Part shown: piece after piece, positions 37,903 through 52,271 of the stretch | Numbering within the stretch: position 1 is the stretch's first letter | Layout of the letters: each line of letters opens with the position of its first letter | Origin: an uncultured Paracoccaceae bacterium | Lineage (GTDB): Bacteria; Pseudomonadota; Alphaproteobacteria; Rhodobacterales; Rhodobacteraceae | Assembly: GCA_947500825.1 (NCBI GenBank) | Contig: CANMTR010000009.1 | Coordinates: 80,478-144,477 of the forward strand | Direction of reading: 5' to 3' | Length of the DNA: 64,000 nucleotides | Notes under the pieces: model-generated | Told to the model about the DNA's origin: nothing | The model's input: the letters and a program-made list of their open reading frames with translations, nothing else | Databases searched by the model: none | Program-made: the position numbers and the translations under genes

Positions 37903-37973
37903 GCCGGAACGGATCATCCCATTCCCGGGCGTCGGGCGCAATGGGGCCGGCGCACCCGGGCGGCCTGGCAGGG

Positions 37974-38003
37974 TTGACCTTCCAGCGACTGGAGCCCTTA
38001 TCT
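37974..38003 (+). promoter_or_regulatory. CueR/HmrR-type copper-responsive promoter-operator
   Basis: TTGACC...TTCCAG-CGA-CTGGAG...TTATCT just upstream of copA: long spacer with a dyad between the -35 and -10 elements, typical of MerR-family operators. Confidence 0.75.
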
Positions 38004-38033
38004 CTTCGGTCCAACCGGCAACAGGAGGGGGCC

Positions 38034-40526
38034 ATGGCCGCCGACAGCGTCACGATCCGCATCACCGGGCTGTCCTGCGCGTCCTGCGTGGGCCGGGCCG
38101 AACGGGCGATCCGCAGCGTGCCCGGCGTGGACCGGGCCGAGGTGAACCTCGCCACCGGGACGGCGCGCGTGGCCCCCGGCACCGCGGCCCTTTCCGACAT
38201 CGCCTCGGCGCTGGAGCGGGCGAACTACCCCGCCGCGACCCGCAGCGGGACCTTCGTGGTCGAGGGGATGAACTGCGCCTCCTGCTCGGGGCGGGTGGAG
38301 CGGGCCGTCGGCGCCCTGCCGGGCGTGACCGGGGCGCGGGTGAACCTGGCCACGGGGACGCTCGAGGCGGACTGGATCGACGGGACCGCCACCCCCGCCG
38401 CCATGGCCCGCGCCGCGACCGAGGCCGGCTACCCGACCCGGCCCCGCGACGACGACGCGGACGCCCCGTCCGCCGATCGCGGCGCGGCCGAGACCCGTCG
38501 CACGGCCCGGGCCGCGATCGTCGCCGGGGCGCTGACCCTGCCGGTCTTCCTGGTGGAGATGGGCGGCCACCTGCTGCCCGGCCTCGCCGCCCCGGTGGAG
38601 GCGGCGACGGGACAGCGGGGCCTGTGGATGGTGGAGTTCGCGCTCATCACCCTGGTCCTGGCCTGGCCGGGCCGGCGCTTCCTGGCGCGGGGGGTGCCCG
38701 CGCTCCTGCGCGGCGCGCCGGACATGGATTCGCTGGTGGCGCTGGGCACGGTGGCGGCCTGGGGCTATTCCACGGTGGCGACCTTCGCGCCCGCGCTCCT
38801 GCCCCCGGGCAGCGTCGCGGTCTATTTCGAGGCGGCGGGCGTCATCGTCACGCTGATCCTCGCTGGCCGCTGGATGGAGGCCCGGGCGCGGGGCCGCACG
38901 GGCGCCGCGATCCGCGCCCTGGTCGGCCTGCAACCGCGCACGGCGCGGGCGATCCGCGACGGCCGCGAGGTCGAGGTGCCGGTGGCGGAACTCGGCACCG
39001 GCGACCGGGTGATGGTCCGCCCCGGAGAGCGCCTGCCGGTGGACGGCACCGTGGTCGAGGGGCGCTCCTTCGTGGACGAATCGATGCTGACCGGCGAGCC
39101 GATCCCGGTGGACAAGACCGCGGGCGACGCCGCCACGGGCGGCACCGTGAACGGCGCGGGCCTCCTGACCCTGCGCGCGACCGCCGTGGGCGAGGCCACC
39201 GTGCTGTCGGGCATCGTGCGGATGGTGCAGGAGGCGCAGGGCGCCAAGCTGCCGATCCAGGGCGCGGTGGACCGGGTGGTGCGCTGGTTCGTCCCCGCGA
39301 TCCTGGGCGTCGCGGCGCTGACCGTGGCGGCCTGGCTCGCCCTCGGCCCCGATCCGGCGCTGGGCCTGGCGCTGGTCTCGGGCGTGTCAGTCCTGATCAT
39401 CGCCTGCCCCTGCGCCATGGGGCTCGCCACGCCCACGAGCGTGATGGTGGGCACGGGCCGCGCCGCCGAGCTGGGCGTCCTGTTCCGCCGCGGCGACGCT
39501 CTGCAAAGGCTGCAGGAGGTCCGCACGATCGCCTTCGACAAGACCGGCACCCTGACCGAGGGGCGCCCGGACCTGACCGACCTCGTGCCGGCGGGCGACA
39601 TGTCCGGGGCGCGGGCGCTGACCTTCGCCGCGGCGGTGGAGCGCGGCTCCGAGCACCCCATCGCCACGGCGATCCGGCGCGCCGCCGACGCGCGCGAAAT
39701 CGAGGTGCCCGCCGCCGAAGGGTTCGAGAGCCTGACGGGACTGGGCGCACGCGCCCGGGTCGAGGGGCACGGCGTGCTGGTCGGCGCCGCCCGCCTGATG
39801 GCGCGCGAGGGCATCGACACCTCAGGGCTGGACGCGGATGCCGAGCGGATCGCGGCGGCCGGCCGCACGCCCCTCTTCGTCGCGGTGGAGGGCCGGGTGG
39901 CGGCCCTCCTGGGCGTGGCCGACCCGGTGCGCCGCGGCGCGGCTTCGGCCGTGGCGGACCTCAAGGCACGCGGGGTCCGCGTGGCGATGGTATCCGGCGA
40001 CGCCCGCGCCACCGCCCGCGCGATCGGCGACGCGCTGGGCATCGACGACGTGGTGGCCGAGGTCCTGCCCGGCGACAAGGTCGCGGCGGTGGAGAAGCTC
40101 GAGGGGCCCGTGGCCTTCGTGGGCGACGGGATCAACGACGCGCCCGCGCTTGCCGCCGCCGACGTGGGGATCGCGGTGGGCACGGGCACCGACGTGGCCA
40201 TCGAGGCGGCGGACGTGGTGCTCGTCTCGGGCGACCCGGCGGGCGTGTCCCGCGCGGTGGAGGTGAGCCGGCGCACCATGCGCAACATCCGGCAGAACCT
40301 GTTCTGGGCCTTCGCCTACAACGCGGCCCTTGTGCCCGTCGCCGCCGGCATCCTGTGGCCCGTCACCGGGCACCTGCTGTCGCCCATGCTGGCGGCGGGG
40401 GCCATGGCGCTGTCGAGCGTCTTCGTGCTGACGAACGCCCTGCGGCTGCGGCGGATGGAGGTTGGCGCGCCCCGGCACTCCGACCCGTCGCCGGCGCCCG
40501 GGGCCGCGCCGCAACCGGCCGAGTGA
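38034..40526 (+). CDS. copA: Copper-translocating P1B-type ATPase with two N-terminal HMA domains
   Basis: [12 protein letters not shown] and [12 protein letters not shown] metal-binding motifs, CPCAMG TM motif, [19 protein letters not shown]. Confidence 0.95.
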
Positions 40527-40551
40527 GACCGAAGGAAAAGGGAGAGACGCG

Positions 40552-40950
40552 ATGAACATCGGAGTCGCCGCCGCCCGGTCGGGCCTGCCGGCCAAGACGA
40601 TCCGCTACTACGAGGAGATCGGGCTGGTCCGGCCGCCACGGGACGTCAACGGCTACCGCGCCTTCGGCGAGCGCGACGTGGCGATGCTGGTGTTCCTCGG
40701 CCGGGCGCGGTCCATGGGGTTCTCGATCGAGGATTGCCGCCGGCTCCTGTCGCTCTGGGCCGACCAGGAGCGGGCGAGCGCCGACGTCAAGGCGCTGGCC
40801 CGCGAGCATCTGGCCGAGATCGACGCCAAGATCGCGGGCCTGCGGACCATGCGCGACACGCTCGACCATCTGATCGGGCAATGCGCCGGCGACGACCGGC
40901 CCGATTGCCCGATCCTGGAGAGCTTCTCGGCCGGTCGCCCTTCAGGGTAG
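40552..40950 (+). CDS. cueR: Cu(I)-responsive MerR-family regulator
   Basis: MNIGVAAARSGLPAKTIRYYEEIGLV; C-x7-C metal-binding loop (CAGDDRPDC); downstream of copA. Confidence 0.93.
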   Translation: MNIGVAAARSGLPAKTIRYYEEIGLVRPPRDVNGYRAFGERDVAMLVFLGRARSMGFSIEDCRRLLSLWADQERASADVKALAREHLAEIDAKIAGLRTMRDTLDHLIGQCAGDDRPDCPILESFSAGRPSG

Positions 40951-42321
40951 CACCGCCTCGGGCAGGAGCGGCCAGACCGGTGCCCAGGCCGCGGTGAGCG
41001 CGAGGAGCGCGGCCGTGGCCGCGCCGAGCGTGATCGCGGTCGAGCGCCCCATGACCGCCGCCTCCGCCTCGGGGTGCGACAGCAAGGCCGGTCCGAGCAC
41101 CCGCAGGTAGTAGGCCAGCGAAATCACCGTGTTCGCCGCCGCGGCGAGGGCGAGCCACCACAGACCCGCTTCCAGCGTCGCGGCGAAGAGGGCGAGCTTG
41201 CCCAGGAATCCCGCCAGCGGCGGCACCCCCACGAAGGACAGGAAGGCCAGCGCCAGGGCGGCGAGCGCGGCCGGGTGGCTGCGGCCCAGCCCGCGCCAGT
41301 CGGCGATCCGGGTCCGGCCGCGCAGATGGGCGACCACGGCCAGGGCGGCGACGTTGGCAAACGCGTAGGCGGCCAGGAAGCCGATCAGCGCGGGCAGCGC
41401 CCCGGCCACCGCGACGGCCATCAGCGCGTATCCCGTCTGGCTGACGGAGGACCACCCGATCAGGCGGCGCAGGTCGTCCTGCGCCAGGGCGCAGAGGTTG
41501 CCGAGGGTCATCGTGGCGACCGCGACGAGGCCCAGGAGCAGGCGCAGGGGCGCGGCCTCGTCGGGCACGACCTCCACCAGCCGGTAGAGGGCGACGGCGG
41601 CGGCGACCTTCGGCACCGTGGTCAGGAACGCCGCGGCCGGGACCGGCGCGCCCTCGGCCACGTCGGGCACCCAAGGGTGGGCCGGCACCGCGCCCAGCTT
41701 GAAGAGGAGCCCGGCGAGGACCAGCGCCAGTCCGGTCACCGCCAGCGGGTCGCGGGGCAGGGAGCCGAGCGCGGCGTAGCCCGGGCCCCCCGCGATCCCC
41801 ATGACCAGGACGACCCCGATCACCAGGAGCGCGTTGGCCAGCGCGCCGACGAGGAAGTACTTCATTCCCGCCTCGAGCGAGATCGCCCAGTCGCGGTGGT
41901 AGGCCGCCAGCACGTATCCCGTGACGGACGACAGCAGGACCCCCATCACGAGCTGCATGAGGTCCGCCGCGCCGGCCATCGCCATGGCCCCCAGCGCGGA
42001 GAACAGGAGCATGGCATAGACCTCGCCGTGGCGCCTGTCGGTGGCGAACCAGGCGGGCGACAGGCCCACCGAGAGCGCGGTCAGCCCCAGGATCAGGAGC
42101 CGCGCCGACGCGGTCGCGCCGTCGAGGGCGAAGGTGCCCGAGAAGGTCGTCTGCCGCAGCCCGGCCTGCGACAGCGCCAGCCCCGCGGCCACCGCCAGCC
42201 CGGCGAGCGCGACCCCGGCGCACCAGCCGTGGCGCGGCTGGGGCAGCGCCATCGCCGCCAGCAGGGCGAGGACGGCCGTCACGAGGACCGCGATCTCGGG
42301 GGCGAGGTCGGCCAGGGGCAT
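40942..42321 (-). CDS. NADH-quinone oxidoreductase subunit N homologue (orphan membrane-arm cluster)
   Basis: Proton-conducting transporter domain, AGLLFKLGAVPAHPWVPDVAEGAPVPAAAFLTTVPKVAA; terminal gene of the A-BD-H-J-K-L-M-N operon. Confidence 0.88.
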   Translation of the reverse strand: MPLADLAPEIAVLVTAVLALLAAMALPQPRHGWCAGVALAGLAVAAGLALSQAGLRQTTFSGTFALDGATASARLLILGLTALSVGLSPAWFATDRRHGEVYAMLLFSALGAMAMAGAADLMQLVMGVLLSSVTGYVLAAYHRDWAISLEAGMKYFLVGALANALLVIGVVLVMGIAGGPGYAALGSLPRDPLAVTGLALVLAGLLFKLGAVPAHPWVPDVAEGAPVPAAAFLTTVPKVAAAVALYRLVEVVPDEAAPLRLLLGLVAVATMTLGNLCALAQDDLRRLIGWSSVSQTGYALMAVAVAGALPALIGFLAAYAFANVAALAVVAHLRGRTRIADWRGLGRSHPAALAALALAFLSFVGVPPLAGFLGKLALFAATLEAGLWWLALAAAANTVISLAYYLRVLGPALLSHPEAEAAVMGRSTAITLGAATAALLALTAAWAPVWPLLPEAVLP

Positions 42322-42322
42322 C

Positions 42323-43795
42323 TCAGCCCCCCGGGCCGAGCGTGGGGACGAGGCTGCCCGCGTCGATCAGCGACAGGAGCCAGGCGGGCCAGACCCCGAT
42401 CAGGACCACGAGGGCCAGGAGCGCGCCCAGGATCGCCGTCTCCCGCCGCGTGAGGTCGGCGAAGTCCGCGCGGGTCGCGGGCAACTCCCCGAAGAAGACC
42501 TGCCGCAGCATCGACAGGAACAGAGCCGCGGTCAGCAGGATGCCCAGGAGGCCCGCCGCGGCGATCCAGGGATAGACGGCGAAGGCCCCGAGGAAGACGT
42601 GCAGCTCGGCCACGAAGCCCGCCAGCCCCGGCAGGCCCAGCGAGGCGAAGGCCGCCAGCGTCGCGAGGCCCGCGAGGCGCGGCGCGGGCCCGGCGAGACC
42701 GCCGAAATGCCCCATGTCGTGATCCGAGGCGCGCTGCCAGATCGCGCCCGCGACGAGGAACAGTGCCCCCGTGATCAGGCCGTGCGCGACCATCTCGACC
42801 ACCGCGCCGGTCAGCGCGATCTGGCGCGCGGCCTCAGGGCCCAGCCCCGATCCGGCCACGGCGACGCCGAGCACGACGTATCCCATATGGTTGACCGAGG
42901 TGTAGGCGATGCGGCGCTTGAGGTTGTCCTGCGCACAGGCCACGAGCGCCCCCCACAGGATCGAGGCGAGCCCGAGGAGCGCGATCGGCAGGGCGTGGCG
43001 GGCAAAGGCCTCGGGCACCATCTGGAGCGCCACGCGCACCAGCCCGTAGGCCCCCATCTTCAGCAGGACCCCGGCCAGGATCGCCGAGACGGGGCCGGGG
43101 GCATTCACGTGGGCGGGCGGCAGCCAGGTATGGAGCGGGAACACCGGCGTCTTGATCCCGAATCCCGCGACGAGGGCCAGCAGCACGAGGCCCGCCACGG
43201 GCCCCGAGAGCGGCGGCGCGGCGATGATGGCGCGCATGTCGAAGGTCAGGTCGGGCATCGACAGGGCGAGGACGATGATCCCGACCAGGATCAGCAGGGA
43301 GCCCGCGAGGGTATAGACGAAGAACTTGAGCGCGGCGGCCTGCGCGTCGCCGTGGCCCCAGCGGCCGACAAGGAAGTACATCCCCACCAGCGACAGGTCG
43401 AAGAACACGTAGAACAGCACCAGGTCGAGCGTGACGAAGAGCCCGGTGGACACGCCTGCCAGGAACAGCATCCACGCGTGGTAGGCGCGCGCGTCGGACA
43501 CCCGGATCGGCCAGGCGATGGCGGCCACGAAGATCACCGCCGAGACGAGGGCGAGCGACAGCGACATCCCGTCCACGCCCACCCGCCAGGCGATCCCGAG
43601 GGAGGGGATCCAGGGCATCTCCGCCTGGGCGGAGAACCCGCCCGAGGCGTCGTAGGTCGCCCAGACGAGGAGGAGGAGCGCCAGGGGAACGCCCGCGACC
43701 GCGGTGGCGACCGGGCGCGCCCGCGCGGCATCGAGAGGCAGCGCGGCGAGGGCCAGGGCGCCCAGGAGCGGCACGATCACGGCGAGGGTCAGCAC
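42323..43795 (-). CDS. NADH-quinone oxidoreductase subunit M homologue
   Basis: FGIKTPVFPLHTWLPPAHVNAPGPVSAILAGVLLKMGAYGLVR; GTG start at 43795, 1 nt after the upstream gene's stop. Confidence 0.9.
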   Translation of the reverse strand: MLTLAVIVPLLGALALAALPLDAARARPVATAVAGVPLALLLLVWATYDASGGFSAQAEMPWIPSLGIAWRVGVDGMSLSLALVSAVIFVAAIAWPIRVSDARAYHAWMLFLAGVSTGLFVTLDLVLFYVFFDLSLVGMYFLVGRWGHGDAQAAALKFFVYTLAGSLLILVGIIVLALSMPDLTFDMRAIIAAPPLSGPVAGLVLLALVAGFGIKTPVFPLHTWLPPAHVNAPGPVSAILAGVLLKMGAYGLVRVALQMVPEAFARHALPIALLGLASILWGALVACAQDNLKRRIAYTSVNHMGYVVLGVAVAGSGLGPEAARQIALTGAVVEMVAHGLITGALFLVAGAIWQRASDHDMGHFGGLAGPAPRLAGLATLAAFASLGLPGLAGFVAELHVFLGAFAVYPWIAAAGLLGILLTAALFLSMLRQVFFGELPATRADFADLTRRETAILGALLALVVLIGVWPAWLLSLIDAGSLVPTLGPGG

Positions 43796-43796
43796 G

Positions 43797-45614
43797 TCAG
43801 CCTCCGAGGAACAGGAGCGCGATCCCCGCGGCGAGGCCCGCGACGAGGATCGTATAGTAATGGTGGGCGAGCCCGGTCTGCAACCGGCCCAGGTCGCGCC
43901 CGGTGAGGCTCGCCAGGCGCGCGCCGCCCCGGGACGGCAGGTCGGCCAGCCGCTCGCCGCCGCGGCCCGCGGCGCGCGAGGCGCGCAAGGTCGCGCCGAC
44001 GACGCCGCCCACGAGCCCGGTGGCCGCGCCCAGCCCGGCGCGCTGCCCGTCGATCGCGGCGTCGTCGAGCCGCGCGGCGCCGCGCGCCAGCGCCGCGACG
44101 GGGCGGACGACCGCATGGTCTATCAGGTGCGGCAGGCCCAGCCAGTCGGAGCGGGGCGCGGGGCCTGGCCGTCGCGCCATGGCGACCCCGGCCAACAGCC
44201 CCAGCGCCACGGCGGCGAGCGACGCGGCGGTCGCCGCCGTGGCGCCCGCGGGCAGGGCCACGCCCGCCCCCCGCGCGACGGCGTCCCGGACGGGCGCCAG
44301 CCACAGGGCCGACAGCGCCAGCGTCGCGCCCGACAGGAGCGCGAGGGCGATCGCCCCGCCCCGCGGCGGGGCGACATGGCCGGCGGCCCGGTCGCCCGGG
44401 GCGAAGGCCAGCAGCCAGAACCGGGCGGAATAGGCCGCCGCGATCCCGCCCGCGACGATCCCGCCCATGGCGGCCGCGGGGCCGGCCTGGCCCATGGCGG
44501 CGACCATCTCCTCCTTGGTCCAGCCGCCCGCGAGGGGCGGCACGGCGGCGAGCGACAGGGCGGCGGGGGCCGCGAGCGCGGCCGCCCGGGGCAGGGCGCG
44601 GCCCAGGCGCATCCCGTGCAGATCGAAGCTGCCCGTGGCGCGGTGGGCGAGGCCCGCGGCGACAAAAAGCGCAGCCTTGGCCGCCGCGTGGACGACCAGG
44701 TGCAGGATCGCCACGCCCGGGAACCCGGCGCCGACCGTGGCGATCATCAACCCCGTCTGCGCCGAGGTGGAGGCGGCGAGCACCTTCTTGGCGTGGACCT
44801 GCCGGCAGGCCGCCACGCCGCCCAGGGTCGCCGTCGCCAGCCCCAGGACCATCGCGCCCGCCGCGGCGCCCGGCGCGGCGGCGAGGGTCGGCTGGAGGCG
44901 CGCCAGCAGGTAGACACCGGCCGCGACCATGGCGGCCGAATGGAGCAGGGCCGAGACGGGCGTCGGCCCGTCCATCGCGCGCAGGAGCCAGGGCGCGAAG
45001 GGGACCTGCCCCGCCTTCGCCGCCGCCGCCACGAGGAGCCCCCAGCCGGCGAGGGCGAGGGGCGCGCCCTCGAGCCGCGACAGCGCGTCGTAGCCGGTCG
45101 AGCCGGTGGCGGCGAAGGTCGCGAAGAGGGCGACGAACAGGCCCAGGTCCCCCGCCCGTGTGGCGACGAAGGCATAGGCGGCCGAGCCCATGGGCGCCGC
45201 CTCGCGCCAGCGGTGGCCGATCAGCGCCCAGGAGCAGGCGCCGACGATCTCCCACCCGATCAGGAGCGTCACCAGATCGTTGGCGATGACCACCAGCTCC
45301 ATCGCGCCGACGAAGACCAGCAGGAGCCCGAGGAGGCGGGGCAGGGCCGGGCCGCGGTCGGCCGCGGCGAAGAGCAGAACCGGCAGGGCGACGAGCGGCA
45401 CCGCGACCGCGACAACGGCGGCCAGGGGCGGCAGGGACGCGCGCAGGGGAAGCGCCTCGGACCAGGCGAGGTGCCCCGCCGCGCCCGCGAGCAGGGCGGC
45501 CAGGAGCGCGGTGAGCCCGGCCATGACGGCGGCGGCCGCGCCCGGGCGGGGCGGCGGCGCCGCCCAGAGCGCCAGGCCCGCGATCGCGGGAAGGAGGGGC
45601 AGGGCCCAGATCAT
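43797..45614 (-). CDS. NADH-quinone oxidoreductase subunit L homologue
   Basis: LLIGWEIVGACSWALIG, AKAGQVPFAPWLLRAMDGPTPVSALLHSAAMVAAGVYLLARL. Confidence 0.9.
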   Translation of the reverse strand: MIWALPLLPAIAGLALWAAPPPRPGAAAAVMAGLTALLAALLAGAAGHLAWSEALPLRASLPPLAAVVAVAVPLVALPVLLFAAADRGPALPRLLGLLLVFVGAMELVVIANDLVTLLIGWEIVGACSWALIGHRWREAAPMGSAAYAFVATRAGDLGLFVALFATFAATGSTGYDALSRLEGAPLALAGWGLLVAAAAKAGQVPFAPWLLRAMDGPTPVSALLHSAAMVAAGVYLLARLQPTLAAAPGAAAGAMVLGLATATLGGVAACRQVHAKKVLAASTSAQTGLMIATVGAGFPGVAILHLVVHAAAKAALFVAAGLAHRATGSFDLHGMRLGRALPRAAALAAPAALSLAAVPPLAGGWTKEEMVAAMGQAGPAAAMGGIVAGGIAAAYSARFWLLAFAPGDRAAGHVAPPRGGAIALALLSGATLALSALWLAPVRDAVARGAGVALPAGATAATAASLAAVALGLLAGVAMARRPGPAPRSDWLGLPHLIDHAVVRPVAALARGAARLDDAAIDGQRAGLGAATGLVGGVVGATLRASRAAGRGGERLADLPSRGGARLASLTGRDLGRLQTGLAHHYYTILVAGLAAGIALLFLGG

Positions 45615-45916
45615 CCCGCGAGCGTCCCGATGCTCTCGGTCATGTCGGCCTGCCGCTTGCGGTAGATCGCGACGACCAGGGCGAAGCCGACGGCCATCTC
45701 CACCGCCATCACCGCCATGACGACGATTGCCAGGAGCTGGCCCTCCGGCATTCCGCCGAGGGCGAGGCTCCACAGGCCGATGGCGGCCAGGAGCGCGCCG
45801 TTCAGCATCAGTTCCAGCCCCATCATCAGCATCACGAAGCTCTGCTGGCTCAGCGCGCCGTAGAGGCCGATGCCGATCAGCGCCGCGGCGCCCAGGAGGA
45901 CGATGGTCAGCGTCAT
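45611..45916 (-). CDS. NADH-quinone oxidoreductase subunit K homologue
   Basis: IGLYGALSQQSFVMLMMGLELMLNGALL, VMAVEMAVGFALVVAIYR (both conserved TM Glu present). Confidence 0.92.
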   Translation of the reverse strand: MTLTIVLLGAAALIGIGLYGALSQQSFVMLMMGLELMLNGALLAAIGLWSLALGGMPEGQLLAIVVMAVMAVEMAVGFALVVAIYRKRQADMTESIGTLAG

Positions 45917-45923
45917 GGGGTCC

Positions 45924-46517
45924 TCAATGGTGATGGTGGTGGCCGCCGCCACCTTCGGGCTGTCGTCCGGCGGGGGGGCCTCCCGGCTCCAGCCCCGGCG
46001 GGCGCGAGCCGTCGTCCGCCGGGCCGAACCGGCCCCGGCGCGAGGACAGGATCACCGCGCCCACCATGGTCGCGAGCAGCGTCACGCCCGCCGTCTCGAA
46101 GATCAGCATCGAGGGCCCGAGAAGCTCGTGGCCCAGGGCGGCCACCGTGTCGGTGCCGGTCGCGACGCGCGCGGCCGGCGGGTCGGCGGCGAGAACGGCG
46201 GCGGCGAGCCCGGCGAAGGCGAGCCCGCCCGCGACGGCGGCCACGCGGTGCTGGTGGACCATGACCATCGGGTTCAGGCCGGCGGGATTCATCATGAACA
46301 TCACCATGAAGATCGCCATCACCATCATCTCCACCGCCATCATGAAGATCGTGGCGATGCCGATATAGGGCGCCGACAGGACGACCCCGACCGCGCCCAC
46401 CGCGACGAAGGACAGCATCAGCGAGAACGAGGCCCGCACCATAGAATCGACGCGGAAAACGCGCCATCCGGTCCAGACGGCGAAGAGGCACAGGGCGGCG
46501 ATGACGAGGTCGGTCAC
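45924..46517 (-). CDS. NADH-quinone oxidoreductase subunit J homologue with C-terminal GGGGHHHHH tail
   Basis: VRASFSLMLSFVAVGAVGVVLSAPYIGIATIFMMAVEMMVMAIFMVM; GTG start at 46517 overlapping the upstream gene. Confidence 0.85.
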   Translation of the reverse strand: MTDLVIAALCLFAVWTGWRVFRVDSMVRASFSLMLSFVAVGAVGVVLSAPYIGIATIFMMAVEMMVMAIFMVMFMMNPAGLNPMVMVHQHRVAAVAGGLAFAGLAAAVLAADPPAARVATGTDTVAALGHELLGPSMLIFETAGVTLLATMVGAVILSSRRGRFGPADDGSRPPGLEPGGPPAGRQPEGGGGHHHHH

Positions 46518-47395
46518 AGGGCGATCACCCCCGAGATGAGCAGATGCAGGAACGACAGCGGCAGCAGCACGGTCCAGACGAGGCCCAGCATGCGTGCGGG
46601 GGGCGGCCGCGCGATCCGCGCGCCGAGCGCGAGGATCGCGGCCATCATCCCCGCCGTCTTGAGCCACAGCCACACCGGGCCGGGCAGGACCGGGCCCAGC
46701 GGGCCGCCCAGGAACAGCGTCGCGGCCATGGCGCAGGCCGAGACCAGCATCGCCAGCCGCGCGGCCTGCCACAGTGCGCGGGCCGGCCCCGCCTCCTCGG
46801 CCGAGGTGCCGCCGGCGATGTCGGCACCGTCGGCGTAGTCCATGGGCCCGCGCAGGGTCAGCGACAGGATCGCCACCGCAAAGAGCGGCAGGCCCAGGGG
46901 TTGGCGCAGGACGTTCCACGCCCCGCGCTGGCTGTCGACGATGGCGACCAGCGACAGGCTTTCGGCCGGCAGCGCGGCGGCGATCAGCACGAACATCGAG
47001 GGCAGCATCGCCGGCAGCCCGATCGCGGCGTAGCGGTAGGCGCCGATCAACGGAAAGGGCGCGTTGGGCGACCAGCCGTGGAGGAACACGACCACCACCG
47101 TCAGCGCCTCGCACGCGCCCCAGATCGCGATGCCCGCGGGGCTGTCGATCGCTGCGTGGCCGGGCGCGAAGGGCACCACGCAAAGGCCGGCGGCGGCCAG
47201 TGCGAGGTACCAGGCGGGGGCGAGGCGGCGGTTCATGTCGTCGGGCGCCTCGGTCCGTACCGGACCGGCGAGCCAGTCGGCCGCGAGGCTCGCGATCCCC
47301 CCGCCCCCCGCGAGCCGGCGGTCGAGCCACGCGGCCAGAAGCGTCCCGGCGGCGAGGGTCGCGGCCACCGCGAGGAGGAGGAGCGCGCCGATCAT
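46514..47395 (-). CDS. Divergent NADH-quinone oxidoreductase subunit H homologue
   Basis: Partial NuoH pattern (GIASLAADWL...RLAPAWYLALAAAGLCVVPFAPG, LTLRGPMDY, ATLFLGGPLGP), but the quinone-loop region is degenerate. Confidence 0.8.
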   Translation of the reverse strand: MIGALLLLAVAATLAAGTLLAAWLDRRLAGGGGIASLAADWLAGPVRTEAPDDMNRRLAPAWYLALAAAGLCVVPFAPGHAAIDSPAGIAIWGACEALTVVVVFLHGWSPNAPFPLIGAYRYAAIGLPAMLPSMFVLIAAALPAESLSLVAIVDSQRGAWNVLRQPLGLPLFAVAILSLTLRGPMDYADGADIAGGTSAEEAGPARALWQAARLAMLVSACAMAATLFLGGPLGPVLPGPVWLWLKTAGMMAAILALGARIARPPPARMLGLVWTVLLPLSFLHLLISGVIAL

Positions 47396-48282
47396 GCCGC
47401 GAGCGCCTCCTGTGCGAGGGAGGAGGGCGGCAGGGAGGCGAGCGCCAGCATCGCCTCCGCCCATTCGAGGCCGGGCAGGAGGGCGGCGAGGTCCGGGGGC
47501 TCGATCTCCTGGCTCCGCCCCGCCAGGCATCCGGCCAGCCGGTCGCGCGCGTCCCGGCCGCCGACCGGCACGAGCCCCGGCGGCACGGCCCGCAGAAGGC
47601 CGGCGGCGCGCGGACGCCCCCCCGCCGCGACCCTGTCCGCCGCCCCGGGCAGGCCCAGGAGGCGCAGCATCCGGGCCGCGACCAGGTCGGGCGCATCGGC
47701 CTCCGCCGGTTGGTCGAAGGCGGGCGCCTGCACCTCGACCGCGACGATCACGTCGCCCTGCAGCGTCACCTCCAGGACCAGCCCGGGCGGCAGCATCGGG
47801 GCGAAGGGGCCGACGCGGGCGGTGTAGCGGTCGAGCTGCAACCCGTCGCGGATGTCGGCGCCGGTCATCGCCATGGGGCGGCCGTAGGGCGTGCCGCCCA
47901 TCATCCCCTCGCCGCCCTGGCCGTGGTCGCCCTTGCCCCGCCAGGGGGCGGGCGGCGCGTCTGGGCGGCGGTCGGGCGCGCTTTCGCCGCCGCCCAGGAG
48001 GTCCGCCCGGGCGTCGAGGAGGGCGCGCTCGATGTCGCCGGTGCCGTCCCACCGGACCGTGCGGCGTGGATGCGGCACCTGATCGTGGACCCGGTCGAGC
48101 GCCCCGGCGGCGCGGTCCGGGATCGCGCCCGCGACCAGTAGGAGCGCCGCCTCCCGGGGCGTCGCCGCGCGGCGCAGGCCGGGGCGGGCGAGCAGTCGCT
48201 CGACGGCCGGGGCCAGGCCCGGCCCGATCGCCGCGAAGACCGGGGCGGGCGCCGTGGCGGCCAGCCGGGCGAGGTGGCTCAT
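47392..48282 (-). CDS. NuoB/NuoD-derived fusion-like protein without Fe-S ligands (uncharacterised)
   Basis: ATPREAALLLVAGAIPDRAAGALDRVHDQVPHPRRTV resembles the NuoB core; DGLQLDRYTARVGPFAPMLPPGLVLEVTLQGDVI resembles a NuoD-like N-terminal region. Only one Cys in the protein. Overlaps nuoA and nuoH homologues by 4 nt. Confidence 0.72.
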   Translation of the reverse strand: MSHLARLAATAPAPVFAAIGPGLAPAVERLLARPGLRRAATPREAALLLVAGAIPDRAAGALDRVHDQVPHPRRTVRWDGTGDIERALLDARADLLGGGESAPDRRPDAPPAPWRGKGDHGQGGEGMMGGTPYGRPMAMTGADIRDGLQLDRYTARVGPFAPMLPPGLVLEVTLQGDVIVAVEVQAPAFDQPAEADAPDLVAARMLRLLGLPGAADRVAAGGRPRAAGLLRAVPPGLVPVGGRDARDRLAGCLAGRSQEIEPPDLAALLPGLEWAEAMLALASLPPSSLAQEALAA

Positions 48283-48614
48283 TCCCACGCGAACACCCCC
48301 TCGCGCCAGCCATAGAGAAGGCCCACCGACAGGATCGCCAGGAACATTCCCATCTCGGCCAGCGCCTTGGGCCCTTCTGAGACGAAGACGACCGCCCAGG
48401 GGTACATGAACATCATCTCCATCTCGAAGGCGACGAAGACGAGCGTCATGGTATAGGGGCGGAAGTGGTAGCGGCTCCAGGCATGAGTGTCGGGGGTGCC
48501 GCCGCCGAGGAAGGGCGCGGCCTGCGGCGCGGTGGAGGCGGCCTCGGGCAGGGCGCGAGACGCGGCGAAGGCGGCGAGCGCCGTCCACAGGCTCAGGATC
48601 ACGAGGGTCGTCAT
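48279..48614 (-). CDS. NADH-quinone oxidoreductase subunit A homologue
   Basis: RYHFRPYTMTLVFVAFEMEMMFMYPWAVVF is the NuoA (ND3) signature. Confidence 0.92.
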   Translation of the reverse strand: MTTLVILSLWTALAAFAASRALPEAASTAPQAAPFLGGGTPDTHAWSRYHFRPYTMTLVFVAFEMEMMFMYPWAVVFVSEGPKALAEMGMFLAILSVGLLYGWREGVFAWE

Positions 48615-48684: not shown

Positions 48685-49692
48685 TCAGGCGGCCACGCGC
48701 TCCATCTCGTCCAGCGCCTCGAGGATCAGCCCCGCATCCGCGCCCGGGCGGGAGGCGCCCTCGGACAGGACCTGCCGCCAGCGCCGGGCGCCCGCGCGGC
48801 CCGAGAACAGGCCCAGCATGTGGCGCGTGACCTGCCCTACCTTGCCGCCCGCCGCCACATGGGCGCGGGCATAGGGGACCATGGCGCGCGCGGCACCCTC
48901 CCGCGTGGCGGGGGGCGTCTCGGCGCCGAAGATGCGGGCGTCGGCCCCGAGCAGGACCGCGGCGGGGTCGTGGTAGGCGGCGCGCCCCACCATCACCCCG
49001 TCGAGGCCGCGCGCCAGGTGCGCCTCCGCCGCGTCGAGGTCGCCGATGCCGCCGTTGATCGAGACATGGAGGTCCGGGAACGTGGCCTTCATGGCGTGGA
49101 CGAGGGCCGGGTCGAGCGGCGGGACGCTGCGGTTCTCCTTGGGGCTCAGGCCCTTCAGCCAGGCCTTGCGGGCATGGACGATCACGCGGCGGACGCCCGC
49201 GGCGCGCACCGCCTCTAGGAAGGCGGGCAGCACCTCCTCGGGGACCTGGTCGTCGACGCCCAGGCGGCACTTCACCGTCACCTCGCGCGGCTGCGCGGCG
49301 ATCATCGCGGCGCAGGCCTCGGCCACGAGCTCGGGCCGGCGCATGAGGACGGCGCCGAACGTGCCCGACTGGACCCGGTCCGACGGGCAGCCGACATTGA
49401 GGTTGATCTCGTCGTAGCCCGCCTCGGCGCCGATCCGTGCCGCCTGCGCCAGCTCGGCGGGGTCCGAGCCGCCGAGCTGAAGCGCGAGGGGGTGTTCGGC
49501 GGCGTCGTGGTCCAGAAGGTGGTGCGCGCCTCCCCGCACCAGTGCCGGCGCCGTCACCATCTCGGTATAGAGGAGCGCGCGCGCCGAGAGCGTGCGGTGG
49601 AACATGCGGCAATGCCGGTCCGTCCAGTCCATCATGGGTGCCACGGCAAGGCGAGAAGCTTCACAAGCAGCTGATTTCAAACCATTTTCCAT
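48685..49692 (-). CDS. dusA: tRNA-dihydrouridine synthase A
   Basis: LAVAPMMDWTDRHCRMFHR, LQLGGSDPAELAQAARIGAEAGYDEINLNVGCPSDRVQSGTFGAVLM. The N-terminal codons are probably island-derived. Confidence 0.95.
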   Translation of the reverse strand: MENGLKSAACEASRLAVAPMMDWTDRHCRMFHRTLSARALLYTEMVTAPALVRGGAHHLLDHDAAEHPLALQLGGSDPAELAQAARIGAEAGYDEINLNVGCPSDRVQSGTFGAVLMRRPELVAEACAAMIAAQPREVTVKCRLGVDDQVPEEVLPAFLEAVRAAGVRRVIVHARKAWLKGLSPKENRSVPPLDPALVHAMKATFPDLHVSINGGIGDLDAAEAHLARGLDGVMVGRAAYHDPAAVLLGADARIFGAETPPATREGAARAMVPYARAHVAAGGKVGQVTRHMLGLFSGRAGARRWRQVLSEGASRPGADAGLILEALDEMERVAA

Positions 49693-51218: not shown

Positions 51219-52271
51219 GGCATTGTTGCAGAAATCCGGCTTGAGGCGTGACTTCCCCTTACCCCGCTGACGTCATGCCACGCGTTCGATCTCGGCGGTG
51301 CCGAGGGCCGAGAAGCGGTTCATGAGGGTGATGCGGATGTGGATTTCGGCGGTCTGGCGGTCGGGGTCTCTCGCGGCGATGCGCTCGCCGAAAGCTTTCA
51401 GGCAGCGCATCTTCGCTTCGACCCGACTTCGGGCGTGATAGCCCGTCCAGCGTTTCCAGAAGGCCCGGCCATAGTATCGGGTGGCGCGCAGGGTTTCGTT
51501 CCGAACGCATGCTGCCGGGCAGTCCTCCTTCCACAGACGTCCGTTCCTGCGGATCGGGATGATCGGGACAGCATCACGCCCGATGATGGTCTTGTGGCAG
51601 CGGCGCGTGTCATAGGCGCCATCGGCGGTGACGGTGCCGATCTGCTCGCCTACCGGGATCTGGCTCAGCAAGTCTGGCAGCACGGGGCTGTCGCCGTCGC
51701 GGCTCGGAGTGAATTCCACGGCGCGGATGTCCGAAGTGGCCGGATCCATGGCCAGATGGACTTTGCGCCACTGCCGCCGGCCTTGCGCTCCATGCTTGCG
51801 GGCCTGCCATTCGCCGTCGCCGGGGAACTTAATGCCGGTGCTGTCCACGAGCAGGTTCAACGGCCCGTCAGCACGACGATAGGGGATCTGCACGGCCAGG
51901 TTTTTCTGCCTGCGGCACAGGGTGGAGAAGTCCGGCACGGGCCAGTCCAGCCCCGCTAACCGGCGCAGGCTGGCTACCATCCCGGCGGTCTGGCGCAACG
52001 GCAGCTTGAACAGAATTTTGATTGACAGGCAGAACTGGATAGCGGCATCGGAAAAGACCGGCGGGCGTCCCAGCCGCCCGTCACGCGGCGCATGCCAGGT
52101 CATATCCTTGTCCACCCAGATCAGCAGAGACCCCCGCTTGCGCAGCGACGCGTTGTAACTGGACCAGTTCGTCGTACGATAGCGGGCGGGAGGTGGCTTG
52201 CTCATGCAGCCCAAGTAACCGCATGGATTCGCGAAGTGAATCCGCTGGCATCAGAGATATGCAACAACGCC
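51219..52271 (-). mobile_element. IS5-family insertion sequence (IS903-group-like ends)
   Basis: Terminal inverted repeats GGCATTGTTGCA (51219-51230) and TGCAACAACGCC (52260-52271), one mismatch, flanking an intact IS5-type transposase. Confidence 0.85.
51273..52205 (-). CDS. IS5-family transposase
   Basis: LLVDSTGIKFPGDGEWQARKHG, RRQWRKVHLAMD, TADGAYDTRRCH, YHARSRVEAKMRCLKAFGERIAARD (DDE transposase). Confidence 0.92.
   Translation of the reverse strand: MSKPPPARYRTTNWSSYNASLRKRGSLLIWVDKDMTWHAPRDGRLGRPPVFSDAAIQFCLSIKILFKLPLRQTAGMVASLRRLAGLDWPVPDFSTLCRRQKNLAVQIPYRRADGPLNLLVDSTGIKFPGDGEWQARKHGAQGRRQWRKVHLAMDPATSDIRAVEFTPSRDGDSPVLPDLLSQIPVGEQIGTVTADGAYDTRRCHKTIIGRDAVPIIPIRRNGRLWKEDCPAACVRNETLRATRYYGRAFWKRWTGYHARSRVEAKMRCLKAFGERIAARDPDRQTAEIHIRITLMNRFSALGTAEIERVA

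Follow-up and report, generated by a model that had tools for sequence, protein, structure and literature searches.

A complex I-derived operon with a cysteine-poor NuoB–NuoD fusion, linked to copper genes: a candidate Cu(I)/H+ antiporter

A complex I-like operon beside copA and cueR

The window, by which we mean the whole stretch of 64,000 nucleotides that was analysed, carries an uninterrupted minus-strand operon, nuoA-fusion-nuoH-nuoJ-nuoK-nuoL-nuoM-nuoN, that runs from 48614 to 40942 and stands tail to tail with cueR, which comes after copA (Table 1). The CopA-type ATPase has N-terminal metal-binding domains, and its frame opens at the coordinate listed, with the true start slightly downstream. 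The second gene of the operon, the fusion, starts with the ATG at 48282, stops at 47392-47394 and is placed exactly between nuoA and nuoH, leaving the operon intact. NuoC, NuoI and the NADH module (E, F, G) are absent from this operon and from the other operons read, and the canonical NuoB and NuoD of the same genome lie on another contig.

All seven Nuo subunits (A, H, J, K, L, M and N) pass their Pfam cut-offs. The NCBIfam complex I cut-offs, by contrast, are passed only by NuoM (TIGR01972) and, with one model, by NuoK, which sets the operon far from ordinary complex I. Most proton-path residues of NuoL, NuoM, NuoN and NuoK remain. In addition to those of NuoL and NuoN listed in Table 1, NuoM keeps K234, K265 and E407 and has E144 as D (E. 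coli numbers), NuoK keeps the equivalents of E36 and E72 while adding M41, M43, M79, M82 and M86 (counted from a longer GTG ORF at 45952), and NuoA retains both acids of TM2 (E. coli D79 as E, and E81) and has new histidines at 44 and 50. Because the lysine and glutamate residues of the proton paths are kept in NuoL, NuoM and NuoK, the membrane arm looks like a working one and not, as an earlier sequence-only reading of this locus had proposed, like one that is merely kept closed. NuoH is diverged: it is without R46, K66, K70, E71, E157 and E218 and has arginine for E241 (E. coli numbers). Together with the loss of E133 in NuoN, these losses of charge in the E-channel and Q-cavity suggest that coupling may differ from that in complex I.

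Table 1 Features of the operon and its neighbours in the window
Feature	Coordinates	Strand	Remarks
CopA-type copper P-type ATPase	37944..40526	+	TIGR01511 575 bits, cut-off 397
CueR, Cu(I)-responsive regulator	40549..40950	+	TIGR02044 155 bits, cut-off 147.4; convergent with nuoN
nuoN	40942..42321	-	K158, K217, K247 and K395 kept; E133 lost (L) (E. coli numbers)
nuoM	42323..43795	-	Start GTG 43795 assigned by eye
nuoL	43797..45614	-	E144, K229, K342 and K399 kept (E. coli numbers)
nuoK	45611..45916	-	Likely ATG start 45916
nuoJ	45924..46517	-	197 aa; TM3 rich in Met, E63 gained as an acid, tail rich in His
NuoJ C-terminal HHHHH tail	45927..45941	-	Cytoplasmic side predicted from charge distribution
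NuoJ TM3 and following loop, YIGIATIFMMAVEMMVMAIFMVMFMMNPAGLNPMVMVHQHR	46245..46364	-	Met series, about residues 51-91
nuoH	46514..47395	-	293 aa, diverged; new H106
NuoB-NuoD fusion without Fe-S cysteines	47392..48282	-	296 aa; proposed cytoplasmic metal-loading cap
Reduced NuoD-like half of fusion	47395..47856	-	Residues 143-296; GPFAPMLPPG in place of quinone-site GPxHPxxHG
Most conserved fusion segment, WRGKGDHGQGGEGMMGGTPYGRPMAM	47866..47943	-	Residues 114-139; candidate loop for Cu(I) binding
NuoB-like alpha/beta half of fusion	47983..48282	-	Residues 1-100; without the cluster-binding CC, C and C segments
nuoA	48279..48614	-	111 aa; near-invariant new Met 56, 65, 67, 68, 70, 90
NuoA TM2 methionine cluster	48405..48449	-	Residues 56-70

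NuoB and NuoD ancestry of the fusion

That the N-terminal half of the fusion derives from NuoB had been proposed by eye, and profile searches bear this out. Residues 31-77 match the NCBIfam NuoB model (E=1.8e-5), PDB NuoB chains are matched by the single sequence (E=1e-4) and by a profile of the fusion family (E=3.6e-9), and hhalign of the family against NuoB gives 2.1e-7. An AF2 model of the window protein (pLDDT 87, pTM 0.83) is confident except at residues 121-149, and Foldseek with this model returns NuoB/PSST and HycG at probability 1.00; nearly all of the top matches listed are NuoB, but their E values are weak (best only 2.4e-3), and the support for NuoB ancestry rests on the profile searches. 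A Pfam match to TetR_C_40 (E=0.029) was set aside as chance.

The C-terminal half had been described as a reduced NuoD domain, an assignment that holds for the longer relatives of the fusion (about 420-440 aa). These pass the PF00346 (NuoD) cut-off and align with NuoD by hhalign (E=1.3e-11), and the model of a 418-aa relative finds NuoD, HycE and MBS-L chains in Foldseek, with E down to 6e-7. In the window protein taken alone, Pfam detects no NuoD similarity in this half, which is too reduced to score as NuoD by itself.

The fusion occupies the place of the electron-transfer subunits and, as the sequence-only reading had noted, has neither the cysteines of cluster N2 nor the quinone-site histidines. 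A single cysteine is present in its 296 residues. Relatives have 0-6 scattered cysteines each, none of them invariant, no homologue restores the missing ones, and the quinone-site motif GPxHPxxH occurs in 0 of 60 relatives, in which the aligned segment reads GPFxPxxPxG. Loss of the Fe-S cysteines is, on these alignments, a trait of the family; a frameshift or assembly error hiding the cysteines is ruled out, since the relatives are cysteine-poor too.

The junction between the two halves

The Gly/His/Met-rich segment between the halves was originally taken for a linker, but no other part of the fusion is as conserved, and it is not a spacer. It spans part of the region modeled with low confidence in the single chain. 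Its Met-rich consensus is GQGGEGMMGGxPYGRPMAM, and G118, G121-G124 (GQGG), G126, M127, M128, G129, G130, P132, G134, R135 and M137 are the same in all 47 fusion sequences compared. More distant relatives carry other sequences at the same site. For example, the Sulfitobacter junction holds a heavy-metal-binding domain (HMBD) together with a His-rich stretch, a Paracoccus relative has three HMBD copies (PF19335, E=3e-41) and (GHE)n repeats ahead of its NuoD half, and the Pseudonocardia/Rhodococcus junction is a His-rich stretch that ends in HHHMDMPLPGG or NMASMEMPGG. Pfam finds HMBD (PF19335) in the Paracoccus and Sulfitobacter fusions and not in that of the window; the annotated Paracoccus relative has no recognisable NuoB half. 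Because different metal-binding solutions occupy one site, these sequences argue that metal capture is the job of the cap.

Methionines and histidines in the E-channel subunits

We counted a column as newly conserved when at least 90% of the fusion-operon family had one residue that was found in less than 30% of canonical subunits. Newly conserved methionines fill 23 of 396 columns in NuoA/J/K versus 5 of 1790 in NuoH/L/M/N (p=2e-13). In NuoJ they fall at E. coli positions P25, V58, Y59, I63, L66, V70, L74, N75, Q83 and V138 and in one insertion, together with an acid gained at A62 and a histidine gained at Q86. No member of the NuoJ set varies, even in the distant operons of Paracoccus, Sulfitobacter and Pseudonocardia, where the NuoK and NuoA sets are partly retained. 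In addition, the NuoJ tail has at least four histidines in 45 of 55 sequences, whereas canonical NuoJ has three at most.

The E-channel of complex I is formed by NuoA/J/K and part of NuoH, with NuoJ TM3 as its gate (PMC10212512), and homology to E. coli complex I places the new methionines in this channel. A stripe of methionine along one face of NuoJ TM3 was considered and rejected: the seven new methionines alone give a resultant of 0.45 (permutation p=0.14), and the p=0.013 reached with E63 added and M76 dropped reflects a post hoc choice and is discounted as evidence.

Family distribution

Searches found 60 relatives of the fusion, which belong to Alphaproteobacteria, Gammaproteobacteria and Actinomycetota, and gene order is unchanged in every case where the contig is long enough to show it. 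In a tree of H+L+M+N, with canonical complex I from the host genomes as the only outgroup, the fusion operons group apart from it in one clade with support of 1.0 and a long stem. They occur sporadically (the fusion is present in 6 of 298 genomes from the family to which the window belongs), and several copies are plasmid-borne. A class-wide search with the window fusion as a single protein gave mainly canonical NuoB and not the fusion family. Nearly all hosts also have canonical NuoD, and none is shown in four Halomonas/Vreelandella genomes; given these four hosts, it is unlikely that the fusion operon relies on a canonical complex I arm from the host.

Several plasmid copies and multicopy genomes can be mentioned separately. 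The plasmid fusions of Paracoccus (L121, 13218-14951) and Sulfitobacter (L124, 13278-14981) are annotated as 'heavy metal-binding domain-containing protein'. On Martelella mediterranea plasmid pMM259 (L122, 12001-14242), the operon seems cut to nuoA and the NuoB half, which is followed by an ISL3 transposase, and the copper island there adjoins arsenic genes. Two or three fusion copies are present in G296, G297, G299, G316, G321 and G323, the genomes of loci L033, L034, L036, L062, L068 and L071.

Linkage to copper genes

The arrangement in the window recurs elsewhere. A Roseivivax plasmid has the same convergence of nuoN with cueR-copA, plus a multicopper oxidase and cytochromes c, copper genes lie close to the operon on plasmids of Halomonas, Acuticoccus, Martelella and Pseudonocardia, and a CusA/CzcA exporter is encoded upstream of it on a plasmid from Sulfitobacter. 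Arsenic or mercury genes are also present in some of the linked islands. A controlled count concerns CopB: of the 22 genomes that encode it, 16 have it no more than 15 kb from the fusion, against 0.35 expected at random (P about 1e-25, an optimistic value, as the counts include related genomes of Salinisphaera and Halomonadaceae); for canonical nuoD, the control, the corresponding figure is 0 of 18. This linkage occurs in separate lineages, namely Salinisphaera, Halomonadaceae, Caenispirillum and Altericroceibacterium. Of 64 loci, 34 have one or more copper-gene homologues in the short flanks read, an uncontrolled count that includes weak members, and the flanks of the other 30 show no copper gene. 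One such weak member, L035:17505-17831, was picked out by eye as a four-helix copper-storage protein and has no Pfam match, so that it adds little weight to the 34.

Counting against a copper role, a CueR box upstream of nuoA is not enriched (relaxed match at 31 loci versus 26 expected), and no good one was found upstream of nuoA in the window. A perfect CueR-type box, ACCTTCCCGTGGCTGGAAGG, stands 209 bp upstream of nuoA only in Aurantimonas marina (L090), the most divergent proteobacterial copy. Separately, a CueR-like dyad, CCTTCCAGCGACTGGAGCC, lies at window positions 37978-37996, just upstream of the likely copA start.

Discussion

By sequence, the fusion operon is a member of the complex I/Mrp/hydrogenase superfamily, and it fits the definition of no named member. 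It resembles complex I (NDH-1) in having homologous membrane-arm subunits (NuoAHJKLMN) with NuoB and NuoD in the same order and in mostly keeping the key lysine and glutamate residues of L, M, N and K, but it is without NuoC, E, F, G and I, has B and D fused, has lost the N2 cysteines and HPxxH from that fusion, and has an E-channel lined with methionine. From the 11-subunit complex I-like enzyme (Fpo/Nuo-11) it differs in that a fused, cysteine-poor B-D replaces B, C, D and I, and from group 4 [NiFe] hydrogenases in that the fusion has no conserved cysteines of the NiFe site or proximal Fe-S cluster. Hydrogenase/Ehr-type relatives likewise join NuoB/NuoD/NuoH-type modules to antiporter subunits, and Ehr complexes lack the NiFe cysteines; in contrast to these relatives, the fusion operon has NuoA, and its B and D are fused, with unconserved cysteines. 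Mrp (CPA3) Na+/H+ antiporters are redox-free members of the same superfamily, with MrpA/MrpD homologous to L/M/N. However, Mrp lacks NuoA, NuoH and NuoB-D, the Met/His metal signatures and copper-island context distinguish the fusion operon, and the MrpA-G set with its E, F and G is not found, the operon consisting of A-fusion-HJKLMN only.

There are also parallels with dedicated copper exporters. The predicted handling of Cu(I) by methionine and histidine would be common to the fusion operon and to CopA P1B-ATPases and CusCBA RND systems, which occur in the same islands, and the HMBD of fusion relatives is also found at the N-terminus of a Cu-ATPase from one fusion-bearing island. The scaffold, by contrast, is unrelated, and CopA also differs in its energy source. 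In Marinobacter atlanticus, a complex I-like operon inside a copper-resistance cluster is co-expressed with the copper genes (PMC8233155). That operon, which we compare by its description and not by sequence, was reported as NuoADHJKL, and the paper, which suggested copper redox as the energy source, did not describe the fusion, the methionine signature or the family. Beyond this note, a literature search found no description or functional study, most subscription journals lying outside its scope.

We propose that the fusion operon encodes a pmf-driven Cu(I)/H+ antiporter, derived from complex I, that exports copper, and we give this reading a probability of roughly 60%. Transport, its ion and its direction are what we infer from the observed architecture and copper linkage. 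It seems to us a little better than an even bet that evolution turned complex I into a proton-driven Cu(I) transporter by deleting its redox centres and lining the E-channel with methionine, with spread on plasmids and copper islands. The mechanism could run as follows. First, the fusion and the His-rich NuoJ tail would collect cytoplasmic Cu(I), with capture by the Met-rich junction loop or, in relatives, by the HMBD/His-rich insert. Second, Cu(I) would enter at the former quinone entry site and then run along the Met-lined E-channel. This movement would be coupled to proton entry through NuoL/M/N by the electrostatic chain of complex I, which normally couples quinone reduction to proton pumping. 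Finally, copper would leave for the periplasm, to be handled there by multicopper oxidases and the products of other neighbouring genes, and the system would complement CopA.

The main rival to Cu(I) export is an Mrp-like monovalent cation/proton antiporter or proton pump operating under metal stress, for example a copper-gated antiporter for Na+ or K+, in which methionine and histidine residues would bind copper for gating or sensing and would not carry it. Such a machine could be built from the intact antiporter-type subunits NuoL/M/N, Mrp is a known redox-free member of the superfamily (PMC5703873, PMC7419157), and ion-channel genes stand beside two operon copies. We nevertheless regard it as unlikely: the methionine set runs along the helices of the E-channel while L/M/N are spared, a pattern more in keeping with a path than with a sensor, and relatives have metal-binding modules in the cytoplasmic cap.

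It is improbable that the fusion is a structural adaptor alone, sealing the end of the membrane arm without metal chemistry. The sequence-only reading had proposed an adaptor that arose after loss of cluster N2 and quinone chemistry, and the loss itself is confirmed, in a protein of NuoB/NuoD ancestry; the passive plug does not fit the junction, where the presumed linker is conserved beyond any other segment and gives way to HMBD/His-rich modules in relatives, and would leave the copper linkage and the E-channel methionines unexplained. Quite improbable is an ion pump driven by copper redox, with Cu(I) oxidation replacing NADH as the energy source. Although this was proposed for the Marinobacter atlanticus operon (PMC8233155), and multicopper oxidases and cytochromes c occur nearby, the fusion has no redox cofactor site, no cluster cysteines and no quinone-site histidines, and the operon contains no electron-carrier gene. 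A copper importer feeding cuproenzymes could use the same anatomy in reverse and is very improbable, export being preferred because the operon lies among genes for resistance and efflux and its metal-binding parts are predicted to be cytoplasmic.

If Cu(I)/H+ antiport is correct, there are several implications. The fusion operon would represent a new class and, to our knowledge, the first transition-metal mover of the complex I/Mrp/hydrogenase superfamily. It would also be a new plasmid-carried route of copper resistance, hidden under the annotations 'NADH-quinone oxidoreductase' and 'hypothetical protein'. More broadly, a membrane arm that, with neither electrons nor quinone, is driven or drives through the E-channel would be a natural test of coupling in complex I, and would show that the coupling chain operates on a charge other than a redox-linked proton.

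Surroundings of the operon

Two features outside the operon may be noted. Genes resembling egtB/egtD, annotated as ergothioneine biosynthesis on a Halomonas plasmid, follow nuoN in nearly all Halomonadaceae copies (L057, L061, L065-L070, L072-L077, L080, L086, L091 and L093), possibly reflecting copper-linked thiol chemistry. On the nuoA side of the window operon, dusA (48685-49692, minus strand) adjoins a gene for a tyrosine recombinase (PF00589; 49911-51155, plus strand). Elsewhere within the window, the 5' region of dusA has no 15-base repeat. A stretch of lower GC content (61%, versus 75% in the nuo operon) contains a DDE transposase at 51273-52214, and an element was probably integrated at dusA, on the side away from the nuo operon.
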